Below are positions 1-36,516 of a stretch of 64,000 nucleotides of DNA, one piece after another. Position 1 is the first letter of the stretch, and each line of letters begins with the position of its first letter. Origin of the DNA: Coriobacteriales bacterium (GTDB lineage Bacteria; Actinomycetota; Coriobacteriia; Coriobacteriales; UBA8131); contig JAISLY010000060.1 in the NCBI GenBank assembly GCA_031277035.1, forward strand, positions 1 to 64,000, given 5' to 3'. Position numbers and translations under genes: made by a program. The notes beneath the pieces are model-generated. The model did no database searches. It saw only the letters and a program-made list of their open reading frames with translations, and was not told the DNA's origin.

Positions 1-549
1 CCCTCCCAGATATACGCCTACCTCGACGACCCTTCAGCAACCGCAGCATTCATCAAAGAGGTCGAGCGAGGCCACAAGGACTCCCTCCATCTCAGCCTGA
101 ACCTCCAGGAGCTTGCGACGGCGCAACTTGGCGCCTACGGTGCCATCTTTGCGGCAGTGACCGTCGTCATCGGCGTGGTTACGATGCTCGTCATCATCGG
201 CGTGCTCTACCTCGTGCTGCGCACGGCGATACTGCGGCAGCGCCGAGAGCTCGGCATCCAAAAGGCGCTCGGCTTTACCACCTTCCAGCTCATGAACCAG
301 CTCGCCCTCTGCTTCCTGCCCGCCGTCACCCTTGGCGTGGCGCTCGGTGCTGCGGCCGGTGTGCTGGGCTTCAACAACGTCTTTCTCGCGCTGACCCGCA
401 CCTTGGGCATCATGGACGCTTCGATGCCCGCCCCGCTCGGCGCGACCCTTCTCGTATGCGCAGGCATCCTGACACTTTCCTACGCCGCCTCCCTGCTCAT
501 AGCGCTCACCATCCGCCGCATAAACCCCTACCGCCTGATCAGCGAGTGA
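1..549 (+). CDS. FtsX/MacB-like ABC transporter permease, C-terminal part (5' end outside window)
   Basis: Frame 1 is open from base 1 (PSQIYAYLDDPSATAAFIKEVERGHKDSL...); TM segments and the typical FtsX C-terminal pattern 'RRELGIQKALGFTTFQLMNQ...LTIRRINPYRLISE'. Confidence 0.8.
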   Translation, partial: PSQIYAYLDDPSATAAFIKEVERGHKDSLHLSLNLQELATAQLGAYGAIFAAVTVVIGVVTMLVIIGVLYLVLRTAILRQRRELGIQKALGFTTFQLMNQLALCFLPAVTLGVALGAAAGVLGFNNVFLALTRTLGIMDASMPAPLGATLLVCAGILTLSYAASLLIALTIRRINPYRLISE

Positions 550-554
550 GGGCG

Positions 555-583
555 GACACAAGGGGGACGTTCTCTTTTGTGTC
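555..583. repeat. REP-like palindromic repeat (gacacaagggggacgttctcttttgtgtc)
   Basis: Imperfect hairpin ACACAAgggggacgttctcTTTTGTGT; same family as copies flanking the RAYT gene and elsewhere in the window. Confidence 0.85.
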
Positions 584-593
584 GCATCGTGGT

Positions 594-1343
594 TCACGCC
601 TTTCGCACAACCCCAAAGGGGACACCGGTCAATCTCACGATTCGACGGATTGACAGTCCCGCCGCCTTGAGTCTGCCGAGGTTTAAGTCGCGCTCGCCTG
701 CAGGCAGCGCCTGGAACTGGGAGGCGCTGCCCACTCCGTAGAGCTTCTCCATACGCTCTTTGCAGAGCGCATCGGTATTGCTGTCAACGTCAAGGTGCCC
801 CTCTCCCTCCGCAGCCATGAACTCGCAGAACTCGTCCTGCTGCCGTGAGGGTATCGAGGAAAAGAGCGGGAGGATGTCGTCGGCATCTGCAATGCCATCG
901 CCTTTCCCGGCATAATCGGCATAGCTGCTCCAACGATAGTCCTCCGGCTTGGCGCAGATACCTGCCTTGACGGGGTTCTGGTGGATATACCTGAGTACCG
1001 AAAGCAGGTAGCGCTCGTCTTCGACTGCCTCGCTCCTGTACCGACCCTGAAAGAGGGGGCCGCACCTGCCGTACTTCTTGTTGTACCAAGGAACGTAGCG
1101 CACGCCGATACGCTTGAAAACGGTTGCGAGGGGCTCGTCTTCGATGCGCACCAAAAGATGAACATGGTTGTCCATCAAGCAGTAACCAAACAGGAGAAAC
1201 CCACTGACCGACTTGACCTCAGCAAGGACATCGATAAACCGTTCCCGGGCTTGCGAACTTTCGAATATGTTCTGCCTGTTGATGCCGCGCACCATTGCGT
1301 GGTATACGCCGGAACTGCTTGTATTTCTCGCCTGTCTAACCAT
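594..1343 (-). mobile_element. REP-associated tyrosine transposase (RAYT, Y1/HUH, IS200-like Transposase_17 family)
   Basis: 249 aa; 'YHAMVRGINRQNIF', HUH-type 'DNHVHLLV', 'GPLFQGRYRSEAV', 'LRYIHQNPVKAGI.....YRWSSYADY' are hallmark RAYT motifs; flanked by REP repeats on both sides. Confidence 0.92.
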
Positions 1344-1402
1344 AGTTTATCAGTATACTAGTTTCTGATCTAGATTGCTAGTCACAAAAGGCAAAGCACA
1401 GA

Positions 1403-1456
1403 ACACAAAAGAGAACGTCCCCTTTGTGTCCCAAAAGAGAACGTCCCCTTTGTGTC
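1403..1456. repeat. Two tandem REP units (acacaaaagagaacgtcccctttgtgtc / ccaaaagagaacgtcccctttgtgtc)
   Basis: Direct reading; inverted relative to the 555-583 copy, bracketing the RAYT gene. Confidence 0.88.
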
Positions 1457-3281: not shown

Positions 3282-3328
3282 CCCCCACTGTGTCAACCGA
3301 CACAGTGGGGGCGTTCTCTTTTGTGTCC
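3282..3328. repeat. Perfect 13-bp inverted repeat fused to a REP half-unit
   Basis: CCCCCACTGTGTC-aacc-GACACAGTGGGGG followed by cgttctcttttgtgtcc. Confidence 0.8.
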
Positions 3329-3348: not shown

Positions 3349-3588
3349 CGCGATGACCGTAGAAGGCTACCAGCGCATACGCCCGGCTACTACCCTTCCC
3401 AGATATATGCCTGCCTCGATAACCCTTCAACAACCGCAGCATTCATCGAAGAGGTCGAGCGAGACCACAGGGATTCCCTCAATCTCAGCCTGAACCTCCA
3501 GGAGCTTGCGACGGCGCAGCTCAGTGCCTCCCTGCTCATAGCGCTCACCATCCGCCGCATAAACCCCTACCGCCTGATCAGCGAGTAA
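3349..3588 (+). pseudogene. Internally deleted duplicate of the FtsX-like permease end at 1-549
   Basis: 3393 onward matches positions 1-~133, then jumps to the sequence at ~487-549; frame shift near 3385 between MTVEGYQRIRP and GYYPSQIYA. Confidence 0.8.
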
Positions 3589-3644
3589 GAGTGCGGAGGG
3601 ACAGACACAAGGGGCGATTTCGCTTAGTCGCTTGAGCATAAAGT

Positions 3645-5198: not shown

Positions 5199-5213
5199 AG
5201 AATATCGGCGCTG

Positions 5214-5272
5214 CACAAAAGGGACGCTCTCTTTTGTGTTTTCCGACACAAAAGAGACCGTCCCTTTTGTGT
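5214..5272. repeat. Inverted pair of REP units (BIME-like)
   Basis: cacaaaagggacgctctcttttgtgt (5214-5239) and gacacaaaagagaccgtcccttttgtgt (5245-5272). Confidence 0.88.
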
Positions 5273-33268: not shown

Positions 33269-34291
33269 ATGCGGTTTTTCGCAGGTCAACTGTTCAAGTT
33301 CATCATGCTCATGGTCGCCGTGAGCATGGTGTCTTTTGCCCTCGTAAGCCTCTCGCCCACAGACCCGGTGCAGATGAACGTCGGGCAGGTCGCCTATCTC
33401 AACATGAGCGAGGCAAAGCGTGCTCAGCTGGCGGAGTACTGGGGCGTGAACACGCCGCTTTGGGAGCGGTACGCCCACTGGGCGAGCGCGGCCCTGCACG
33501 GGGATTTGGGAACATCGCTGCGCTATAACGCGCCGGTTGTGCAGGTCATCGCTACACGCTTTGTCAACTCGGCCGCGTTGATGAGCGTCGCCTGGCTGAC
33601 GAGCGGCATCTTTGGCCTGCTTCTCGGCATCCTTGCCGCCGTGCGCCGTGGCGGCTGGCTCGATCGTGCCGTCAAAGCCTACTGTTTCCTGCTTGCCTCG
33701 GTGCCCACCTTCTGGCTTGCGCTGCTCGTTCTCATCGTCTTCTCCGTCTGGCTTGGCATCTTTCCCCTGGGCTTCAGCGTCCCCATCGGCGTAGCCCCCG
33801 CCGACGTGACCCTCGCAGACACGCTTCACCACCTCATGCTCCCCGCGCTCACCCTGAGTGTTGTGGGCGTCGCCAACATCGCGCTGCACACACGCGAGAA
33901 GACCATCGACGTCCTTGAGAGCGACTACGTGCGCTTTGCCCGCACGCGCGGCGAGTCCACCGCCACCATCATCTGGCGCCACGGCCTGCGCAACCTCGCG
34001 CTGCCGGCGCTCACACTGCAATTCGCATCCATCAGCGAGATTTTCGGCGGCTCGGTCCTTGTCGAGCAGGTCTTCTCCTATCCGGGCCTCGGCCAGGCGG
34101 CGGTCACGGCCGGCCTTGGTGGCGACGCCGCGCTGCTCGTCGGCATCGCGCTTATCAGCGCCGCGACGGTCTTTGGCGGCAACCTGATTGCAAACCTGCT
34201 CTATCGTCTCATCGACCCCCGTATGCGCCCCGCCTCCCGCCGCCCCGCCCTCAATCTGATGCGGAGAAAGACGGGTGCCTCCCATGAGTAG
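33269..34291 (+). CDS. ABC transporter permease, DppB/NikB type
   Basis: Family motifs 'LSPTDPV', 'FPLGFSVP', C-terminal 'VEQVFSYPGLGQ'. Confidence 0.9.
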   Translation: MRFFAGQLFKFIMLMVAVSMVSFALVSLSPTDPVQMNVGQVAYLNMSEAKRAQLAEYWGVNTPLWERYAHWASAALHGDLGTSLRYNAPVVQVIATRFVNSAALMSVAWLTSGIFGLLLGILAAVRRGGWLDRAVKAYCFLLASVPTFWLALLVLIVFSVWLGIFPLGFSVPIGVAPADVTLADTLHHLMLPALTLSVVGVANIALHTREKTIDVLESDYVRFARTRGESTATIIWRHGLRNLALPALTLQFASISEIFGGSVLVEQVFSYPGLGQAAVTAGLGGDAALLVGIALISAATVFGGNLIANLLYRLIDPRMRPASRRPALNLMRRKTGASHE

Positions 34292-34299
34292 GACACCCA

Positions 34300-34470
34300 G
34301 ACACAAAGGGGACGGTTTCTTTTGTGTTCCCTGAGAGGTGACAAGGCGACACAAAGGGGACGGTCTCTTTTGTGTCGCCCCGAAGCTGGGCAAAAGCAAA
34401 CAACAGAGTGTTCTGGGAACACAAAAGAGACCGTCCCCTTTGTGTCGCCCTTTGTGTCGCCCTTTGTGTC
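34300..34470. repeat. REP cluster (BIME-like) at the permease-permease junction
   Basis: Units 34300-34328, 34348-34376, 34419-34446 (inverted), then two truncated gccctttgtgtc copies; linker AAAGCAAACAACAGAGTGTT. Confidence 0.9.
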
Positions 34471-34549
34471 GCCCCTGTCCCCCTCGCAGCCGCTCCTGCA
34501 CGCTCCTCGCGCGAGTCGTGCCAACGTTGGCAACCGTCGCCGCACGCTT

Positions 34550-35371
34550 ATGACCTTCATCATCGCGGCGCTGCTGCTCGTCGCCATCGTTGTCACCGGC
34601 CGTCTGCTCACCGCACCGAGCTCTTTTGAGGTCGGCGGCCTGCCCATCGCAACCGCAACCGACTTCACGGCAAAAAACCTTGAGCCGGGCCTTTCCCACC
34701 CCTTTGGCACCGACTGGATGGGGCGCGACATGCTCGCCCGCACCCTCGCCGGGCTCTCGACGAGCGTACTCGTCGGCCTGTTTGCAGCCGGAGCCTCGGC
34801 GCTGCTCGCGCTCATTCTCGGCACCGTCGCCGCCCTCGGCGGCCGTCGCGCCGACGCGCTCATCACCTGGCTTATCGACCTCATGCTCGGCATCCCGCAC
34901 ATCGTGCTGCTCATCCTCATCTCCTTTGCCATCGGCAAAGGCTTCTGGGGAGTGGCCATCGGCGTAGCGCTCACGCACTGGCCCAGCCTCACGCGCGTCA
35001 TCCGCGCCGAGATACTTCAGTGCCGCGAGTCGGTCTTTGTCGCCCAGGCGCGCAAGCTCGGTGCCGGACCCTTTACCATCGCCCGCAAACACCTGTTCCC
35101 GCACGTTTTTCCGCAGTTCCTCGTCGGGCTCGTGCTGCTGTTCCCTCACGCCATCCTGCATGAGGCATCCATCACCTTCCTCGGCTTTGGCCTGCCGCCC
35201 GAGCAGCCCGCCATCGGCATCATCCTGAGCGAGTCCATGACCTATCTCAGTGCCGGTTTCTGGTGGCTTGCGCTGTTCCCGGGCATCGCGCTCATCGCCA
35301 CGGTGCTGCTGTTCGACCGCGCCGGCTCCAATCTGCGCCGCCTCATCGACCCCCATCGTTCGCAGGAATAA
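34550..35371 (+). CDS. ABC transporter permease, DppC/NikC type; ORF extends upstream through the REP cluster to 34322
   Basis: 'HPFGTDWMGRDMLARTLAG', 'ASITFLGFGLPPEQPAIGIIL'; original start probably ATG 34284, now followed by a stop within the REP (MSRTPRHKGDGFFCVP*). Confidence 0.8.
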   Translation: MTFIIAALLLVAIVVTGRLLTAPSSFEVGGLPIATATDFTAKNLEPGLSHPFGTDWMGRDMLARTLAGLSTSVLVGLFAAGASALLALILGTVAALGGRRADALITWLIDLMLGIPHIVLLILISFAIGKGFWGVAIGVALTHWPSLTRVIRAEILQCRESVFVAQARKLGAGPFTIARKHLFPHVFPQFLVGLVLLFPHAILHEASITFLGFGLPPEQPAIGIILSESMTYLSAGFWWLALFPGIALIATVLLFDRAGSNLRRLIDPHRSQE

Positions 35372-35385
35372 GGGAGAGGGACGCC

Positions 35386-36516
35386 GTGGTACCGCATGCG
35401 CACGAACACATCGACCACTCCGTTGAGCAGACGCATCACCACCATGCTCACGCGCAGACCTCCCATCACGTCGACGGACATCATCTGCTTCAGGTTGAGG
35501 GATTGAGCATCAGCTTCACGATGTACGAGTCCGCCGAGCCGCGTTTCTTCAGGGCACGGCGTATGCCGGTGGAGGTCATCAGCGACCTGCACATCGGCGT
35601 GCATGCAGGTGAGCTGGTCGCCATCGTTGGCGCGTCCGGCTCAGGCAAAACGCTGCTCGCCGACGCAATCATGGGCATCTTTGAGCCAAATGCCACGGTG
35701 CGCGGACGCATCTGGTTCAATGGTGTGGAGCAAAACGCCGCCTCCCTCGCAGCGCTTGCCGGCAACGGCATCTCGCTCGTGCCTCAAAGCGTGAACCACC
35801 TCGACCCGCTCATGAAGGTCGGGCGTCAGATACTGGGGCATGCGACACAAGGTGCGACACAAGGGGGACGGTCTCTTTTGTGTTCCCCCAAAACCGGGCG
35901 AAAGCAAACAACAGAGTGTTTTGGGAACACAAAAGAGACCGTCCCCCTTGTGTCTGGGAACACAAAAGAGACCGTCCCCCTTGTGTCGCACCCGCAGCCG
36001 TCCCGCGCCGAGCGTCTCGCTGAGCTGTTCAAGCACTACGATCTGCCGCCAGAAGTTGCGGACAAATACCCCCATGAGCTCTCCGGCGGTATGGCGCGCC
36101 GCGTCCTGCTCTGCTGCGCACTGATGGACGACCCCCAGGTCATCATAGCCGATGAGCCAACCCCGGGGCTCGACCTTGAGCTTGCCAGGCGCGCCCTTGA
36201 CGACTTTCGCGAGTTTGCCGACAGCGGCAGAGGCGTGCTACTCATCACCCATGACATCGAACTCGCCCTTCGCGTTGCCGATCGCGTGGCGGTGTTTGCC
36301 GAGGGCACCGTCATCGAAGAGACGGCCGTTGCAAACTTCGCCTCCCCCGACACTCTGGAGCATCCCTTCACGCGTGCCCTCTGGCATGCCCTTCCCGAAC
36401 ATGACTTTCAGGTTCCCGATGACGCCACAGATGCCGCGACGGCGACGGCTGCCGACACCACCTCCACCCCCATTGCCAGCGACACACAATCTGAGAAGAA
36501 CGGCGAGCCATGTTAG
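35386..36516 (+). CDS. ABC transporter ATP-binding protein (DppD/NikD type) with His-rich N-terminus and REP-derived internal insertion
   Basis: GTG start after [38 protein letters not shown]; Walker A GASGSGKT, signature LSGGMARR, Walker B VIIADEPTPGLD; insertion ATQGATQGGRSLLCSPKTGRKQTTECFGNTKETVPLVSGNTKETVPLVS. Confidence 0.85.
   Translation: MVPHAHEHIDHSVEQTHHHHAHAQTSHHVDGHHLLQVEGLSISFTMYESAEPRFFRARRMPVEVISDLHIGVHAGELVAIVGASGSGKTLLADAIMGIFEPNATVRGRIWFNGVEQNAASLAALAGNGISLVPQSVNHLDPLMKVGRQILGHATQGATQGGRSLLCSPKTGRKQTTECFGNTKETVPLVSGNTKETVPLVSHPQPSRAERLAELFKHYDLPPEVADKYPHELSGGMARRVLLCCALMDDPQVIIADEPTPGLDLELARRALDDFREFADSGRGVLLITHDIELALRVADRVAVFAEGTVIEETAVANFASPDTLEHPFTRALWHALPEHDFQVPDDATDAATATAADTTSTPIASDTQSEKNGEPC
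35842..35989. repeat. REP cluster (BIME-like) inserted within the ATPase ORF
   Basis: Units 35856-35884, 35927-35954, 35960-35987; same linker AAAGCAAACAACAGAGTGTT as the 34.4-kb cluster. Confidence 0.92.

Follow-up and report, generated by a model that had tools for sequence, protein, structure and literature searches.

Do the transposase gene near the beginning of this DNA and the palindromes around it belong to one system? In the window, i.e. the whole stretch of 64,000 nucleotides that was analysed, the gene lies between inverted hairpin repeats, and related repeats are found further away. The original prediction placed a REP at 555–583 and two inverted REPs at 1403–1456 on either side of the gene at 594–1343, and both its coordinates and its orientations proved right. 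The elements concerned are the following.

555–583, plus strand: flanking hairpin downstream of the gene, GTT form, GACACAAGGGGGACGTTCTCTTTTGTGTC; its core reads towards the gene
594–1343, minus strand: RAYT gene (Y1/HUH transposase, 249 amino acids), with the catalytic Tyr119 in Y-IHQ-NP, HUH at H60/H62 and an HTH-like C-terminus
1403–1430, minus strand: flanking hairpin upstream of the gene, GTT form; its core reads towards the gene
1431–1456, minus strand: second upstream unit, GTT form, head-to-tail with 1403–1430; the end of its 3' arm is missing

The open reading frame at 594–1343 is intact and its product matches the Pfam Y1_Tnp domain (7e-13). With the NCBIfam model for REP-associated tyrosine transposases it scores 77.2 bits, which is 2.8 bits below the cut-off of 80, versus 15.2 bits with the IS200 model. 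The HUH residues H60 and H62 as well as Y119, N123 and P124 are conserved in the family. A profile of the family (27 relatives) gave a single match in the PDB, the E. coli TnpAREP structure 4er8. The AlphaFold2 model of the protein has a mean pLDDT of 90, and the closest structural counterpart of this predicted fold is likewise 4er8, which was solved with a REP hairpin, followed by the ISDra2 and IS608 transposases. Judged by its HUH and Y---NP motifs and by its being nearer to the RAYT than to the IS200 models, the protein can be considered a RAYT. Its C-terminal part (residues 191–248) is helical with an HTH-like consensus; Pfam HTH matches to this part are weak, and any one HTH family is matched by at most 7 of the 27 family members. 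The residues W94, Q95, E100, H101 and R104, with which E. coli TnpAREP reads GTAG, correspond to F, Q, S, E and E here, the serine at the E100 position being invariant across the family.

All three gene-adjacent copies (555–583, 1403–1430 and 1431–1456) have the form GGGACGTTCTC. Folded as single-stranded DNA, the units at 555–583 and 1403–1430 give stems of 12–13 bp (z of -2.8 and -3.2). No GTAG or GTGG foot was found on the 5' side of the three hairpins, and GTGG is present only 3' of the 555 unit. The upstream permease gene (window 1–549) has a partial copy at 3394–3597, 89–96% identical and with an internal deletion. The similarity breaks off at the point that corresponds to the beginning of the 555 hairpin, and next to it, at about 3604–3617, the copy carries a half-hairpin relic. 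This paralogue was considered as an empty site and rejected, because of the relic at the junction. Neither a mobilisation event nor a clean empty site was observed.

To what extent such an arrangement is typical of the gene family was judged from 27 relatives of the same family and order and 80 from other genomes, mostly Clostridia and Bacilli with some Actinomycetota. An inverted repeat scoring at least 14 between upstream and downstream flanks was found in 79 of the 94 relatives with enough flank (84%), compared with 3.8% when the upstream flank was paired with the downstream flank of another gene and 0% for shuffled flanks. With slightly wider flanks, the inverted repeat was present in 81 relatives, 77 of which have a core oriented towards the gene. 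Almost all relatives with a flanking repeat have GGGGACG or a close variant as this core. The arms around it complement each other when taken from one locus, and not when taken from different loci (mean score 5.7 versus 3.7, z of 15.9, 20,000 permutations). A constant core in gene-specific, self-complementary arms is thus what these loci have in common. Arm similarity rises with protein identity (Mantel r of 0.20, with none of 5000 permutations as high), a rough figure given shared ancestry and the loose alignment of the arms. In the closest relative, at 54% protein identity, the ACACA...TGTGT arms are kept. One single-contig genome of 1.4 Mb (G186) has ten homologues of the RAYT, far above the rest of the class sample.

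Near-copies of the hairpin are dispersed well beyond the gene. The genome to which the window belongs is a draft of 1.82 Mb in 62 contigs, 72.7% complete, and the genome-wide counts given here come from pattern searches together with selected stretches of contigs. In the window, GGGACGKTCTC with at most one mismatch occurs 12 times against 2.4 expected, and none of 100 shuffles reaches 12. Dispersal over the whole genome, also part of the original prediction, is borne out by 27 matches to GGGACGKTCTCTTTTGTGT with at most three mismatches in the draft, about 24 of them clear units; the reversed control gave 0. As in any REPtron, the family is dispersed largely as dimers: seven inward dimers were counted, with a gap of 6 bp in five and of 43 bp in two. 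The dispersed copies in the window are listed below.

3299–3327, plus strand: degenerate dispersed unit, GGGGCGTTCTC
5213–5272: inward dimer with a gap of 6 bp, made of 5213–5239 (plus strand, GCT form) and 5246–5272 (minus strand, GGT form)
34300–34446: unit at 34300–34327 (plus strand), then inward dimer 34348–34376 (plus) and 34419–34446 (minus) with a gap of 43 bp, where a permease gene begins
35856–35987: inward dimer 35856–35883 (plus) and 35927–35954 (minus), with a unit at 35960–35987 (minus), in frame within an ABC-transporter ATPase open reading frame

The dimer at 34.35–34.45 kb folds as a single strand far more stably than its shuffles (z of -9.7). Within the ATPase reading frame (35263–36516), the hairpin cluster at 35845–35989 adds about 50 codons in frame; the linker that holds it is absent or variable in length among relatives. 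A further cluster, at 34284–34475, is found where a permease gene of this transporter operon begins. Translation from the ATG at 34284 would run into a stop inside the cluster, so the true permease start may be downstream. Many dimers of this genome are nested in further mirrored half-units, as if repeatedly inserted mid-way into older palindromes. Several contigs end at hairpin repeats, and some of the copies at contig ends could be assembly fold-backs.

Dispersed copies and flanks of the gene share their arms and differ by one core base. The split into two REP subfamilies that had been proposed on the basis of this base stands: the gene-adjacent copies are GTT in three out of three cases, and 17 of the 21 clear dispersed copies are GGGACGGTCTC or a near form (GGT). 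One of the remaining copies is GCT and three are degenerate with GTT (at 3308 in the window, at 29243 on contig C30 and at 45184 on contig C43). Distinct mobilising events behind the subfamilies, as also proposed, are possible. Most likely, the GGT copies were spread by the lineage of this enzyme, or by a close paralogue that has since disappeared or lies in the part of the genome that the draft lacks, and the flanking GTT copies are most likely their sisters and not their immediate source.

A second RAYT homologue, about 39% identical to the first, is encoded on contig C2 of the same genome. It is flanked by GGGGACGGTTCCATTTTGTCA in inverted orientation, and the genome's three exact occurrences of this sequence lie without exception on that contig. 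Most of the other 36 matches to the second repeat pattern are of a sister form, GGGGACGGTTCCAAATTGTCA, and 16 inward dimers with gaps of 45–47 bp were counted in the genome stretches sampled. Each of the two RAYTs thus has its own repeat, the C2 homologue having its own flank and its own dispersed sister family. For both, flank and dispersed copies differ by 1–2 bases.

Whether repeats follow genes from one genome to another is less clear-cut. In G213, the dispersed copies are identical in sequence to the flank of one of the resident genes. The single-contig genome G130 has 11 matches, of which two exact ones adjoin the gene and most others are one base off; two congeners without this gene's flank type have zero matches. 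Flank and other copies differ by one base in G001, and in G154 dispersed and flank copies share arms and differ in the loop. The gene of G076 and the four genes of G204 that were examined have flanks unlike the dispersed repeats. According to the original prediction, repeats equally abundant in relatives lacking any RAYT gene would speak against the coupling. The results divide on this point: genus g48 has the repeats only in the genome that carries the cognate gene (11 versus 0 and 0), but repeats are present with no gene found in G005, G010, G019, G025 and G167, the latter assembled as one contig. Among 61 relatives, many of them partial MAGs, gene presence and repeat abundance showed no clear association, and the eight genomes with at least nine matches comprise four with the gene and four without. 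Large populations of related hairpins for which no matching RAYT flank was found occur in the same family (149 in G014 and 63 in G019 with the first pattern, 28 in G005 with the second); in these genomes core and loop letters vary from one to the other and the arms are often shared. As a proxy, the 12-mer GGGGACGGTTCT was counted in 200 genomes of the class; the genome of the window has zero copies. All four genomes with at least eight copies have the gene; the ten with at least three copies split 5 to 5, so this proxy does not decide on coupling. Since agreement between flank and dispersed copies is mixed and presence and abundance are not clearly associated, the coupling of gene and repeats has good support when judged by locus and family and only partial support when judged by genomes.

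This could mean that gene and repeats lie side by side through descent alone, the repeats being spread by another enzyme or process and the RAYT being a domesticated nuclease that uses the hairpins otherwise, e.g. in regulation or repair. Such a history would fit the fact that flanking and dispersed copies are not identical in G130, in G154 or in either gene–repeat pair of this genome, and also the repeats without a detected gene. We nevertheless find it unlikely, because 84% of relatives have gene-specific hairpins on either side and because flank and dispersed copies agree in G213 and nearly so in G130. The locus could also be an ordinary insertion sequence of the IS200/IS605 type with hairpin ends, the dispersed hairpins being solo ends or deletion derivatives. 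The protein has the Y1/HUH fold in common with IS608 and ISDra2, hairpins stand at both gene ends, and the inverted dimers look like MITEs. However, the protein scores 77 bits with the RAYT model versus 15 with the IS200 model, the hairpins exceed the genes by more than 10:1, and the two genes of the genome, at about 39% identity and with different ends, give no indication of recent copying; as the draft is incomplete (73%), identical gene copies could be missing from it. An ordinary insertion sequence thus seems improbable. A third reading, in which the palindromes on either side serve the gene and its neighbours as transcription terminators and resemble each other by chance, can practically be set aside: terminator-like calls do overlap the 1403–1456 units, but terminators are not expected to share one sequence on both gene sides that changes together from gene to gene, and cognate and non-cognate flanks (84% versus 3.8%), core matches above chance and a dimer within an open reading frame all contradict it.

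In our view, the locus is probably REPtron-like and of the TIRtron type, with a group-1 (subclass 2.1) RAYT between inverted copies of the hairpin it recognises, and with hairpin dimers mobilised in trans. The assignment to group 1 (subclass 2.1) is based on the locus layout and the HTH-like C-terminus, which fit the published descriptions. E. coli TnpAREP binds to REPs in single-stranded form, cleaves at a CT close by and joins the DNA again (PMC8266576). By analogy, the RAYT would use core and stem to bind its hairpin, folded in single-stranded DNA, Tyr119 would cut and rejoin the DNA next to the hairpin, and hairpin dimers (REPIN-like units) would be copied or moved in trans, the gene itself staying put. 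More tentatively, and with somewhat less than an even chance in our opinion, group-1 RAYTs may use a two-part code, in which a constant GGGGACG core near the hairpin top replaces the GTAG foot and the stem evolves with each enzyme; flank variants of 1–2 bases might prevent the enzyme from mobilising its own gene. If true, each lineage would hold a private enzyme–hairpin pair. The locus by itself is the expected kind of thing, and the family-wide regularity is the more interesting part. With nearly 80 natural enzyme–hairpin pairs, the joint change of a HUH nuclease and its hairpin becomes directly testable.

Compared with known systems, the locus shares with IS200/IS605 elements (IS608, ISDra2) the Y1/HUH fold and the hairpins at both ends, but there is no sign here of the gene transposing, the motif is of the RAYT type and the hairpins far outnumber the genes. 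CGTC-tagged REPs are also short palindromes, mostly in head-to-head dimers (PMC3733652). This class was rejected for the present repeats, in which the CGTC string lies within the palindrome and is not an unpaired end tag; moreover, those REPs are without an associated transposase gene. GTAG REPtrons (TnpAREP groups 2 and 3, in E. coli, Stenotrophomonas and Pseudomonas) likewise combine a Y1/HUH enzyme with Y---NP, flanking hairpins and dispersed inverted dimers, and they depend on a GTAG foot together with residues for reading it. The original prediction had appealed to the coupling established for proteobacteria, and the locus cannot be filed there: a GTAG or GTGG foot is absent 5' of the hairpins, so the GTAG class was rejected as well, the GTAG-contacting residues of TnpAREP are replaced, and there is an additional HTH-like C-terminus as in subclass 2.1. 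The RAYT biochemistry that we found was done on groups 2 and 3 (PMC8266576).

Among described systems, the TIRtron comes closest. Di Nocera et al. (2013) defined TIRtrons as RAYT-like genes between inverted repeats, many with GGGGWSAS, some of them with dispersed repeat families in dimers or clusters (PMC3733652). Of 26 TIRtron/TIRYT elements, 20 belong to subclass 2.1, the largest RAYT subclass of the 2018 survey, characterised by a C-terminal HTH (PMC6006769). The present locus resembles them in its RAYT-like Y1 gene between inverted repeats, its GGGG-type motif, its dispersed dimers and clusters and its C-terminal HTH. It differs in the core, GGGGACG(G/T), one position off the published motif: counted strictly, GGGGACGT agrees with GGGGWSAS at 6 of 8 positions and GGGGACGG at 7 of 8, and some relatives have GGGGACAG, a full match. 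The core sequence was not found in a RAYT context in the literature searched. The 2018 survey reported no REP-like sequences near subclass 2.1 (PMC6006769); we find otherwise, with gene-specific inverted repeats in 79 of 94 relatives. Subclass 2.1 RAYTs thereby gain a concrete candidate substrate in most members sampled. To the description of TIRtrons, the present comparison adds that the repeats are hairpins whose core is constant and whose arms are specific to each gene, as seen in most of the relatives sampled.
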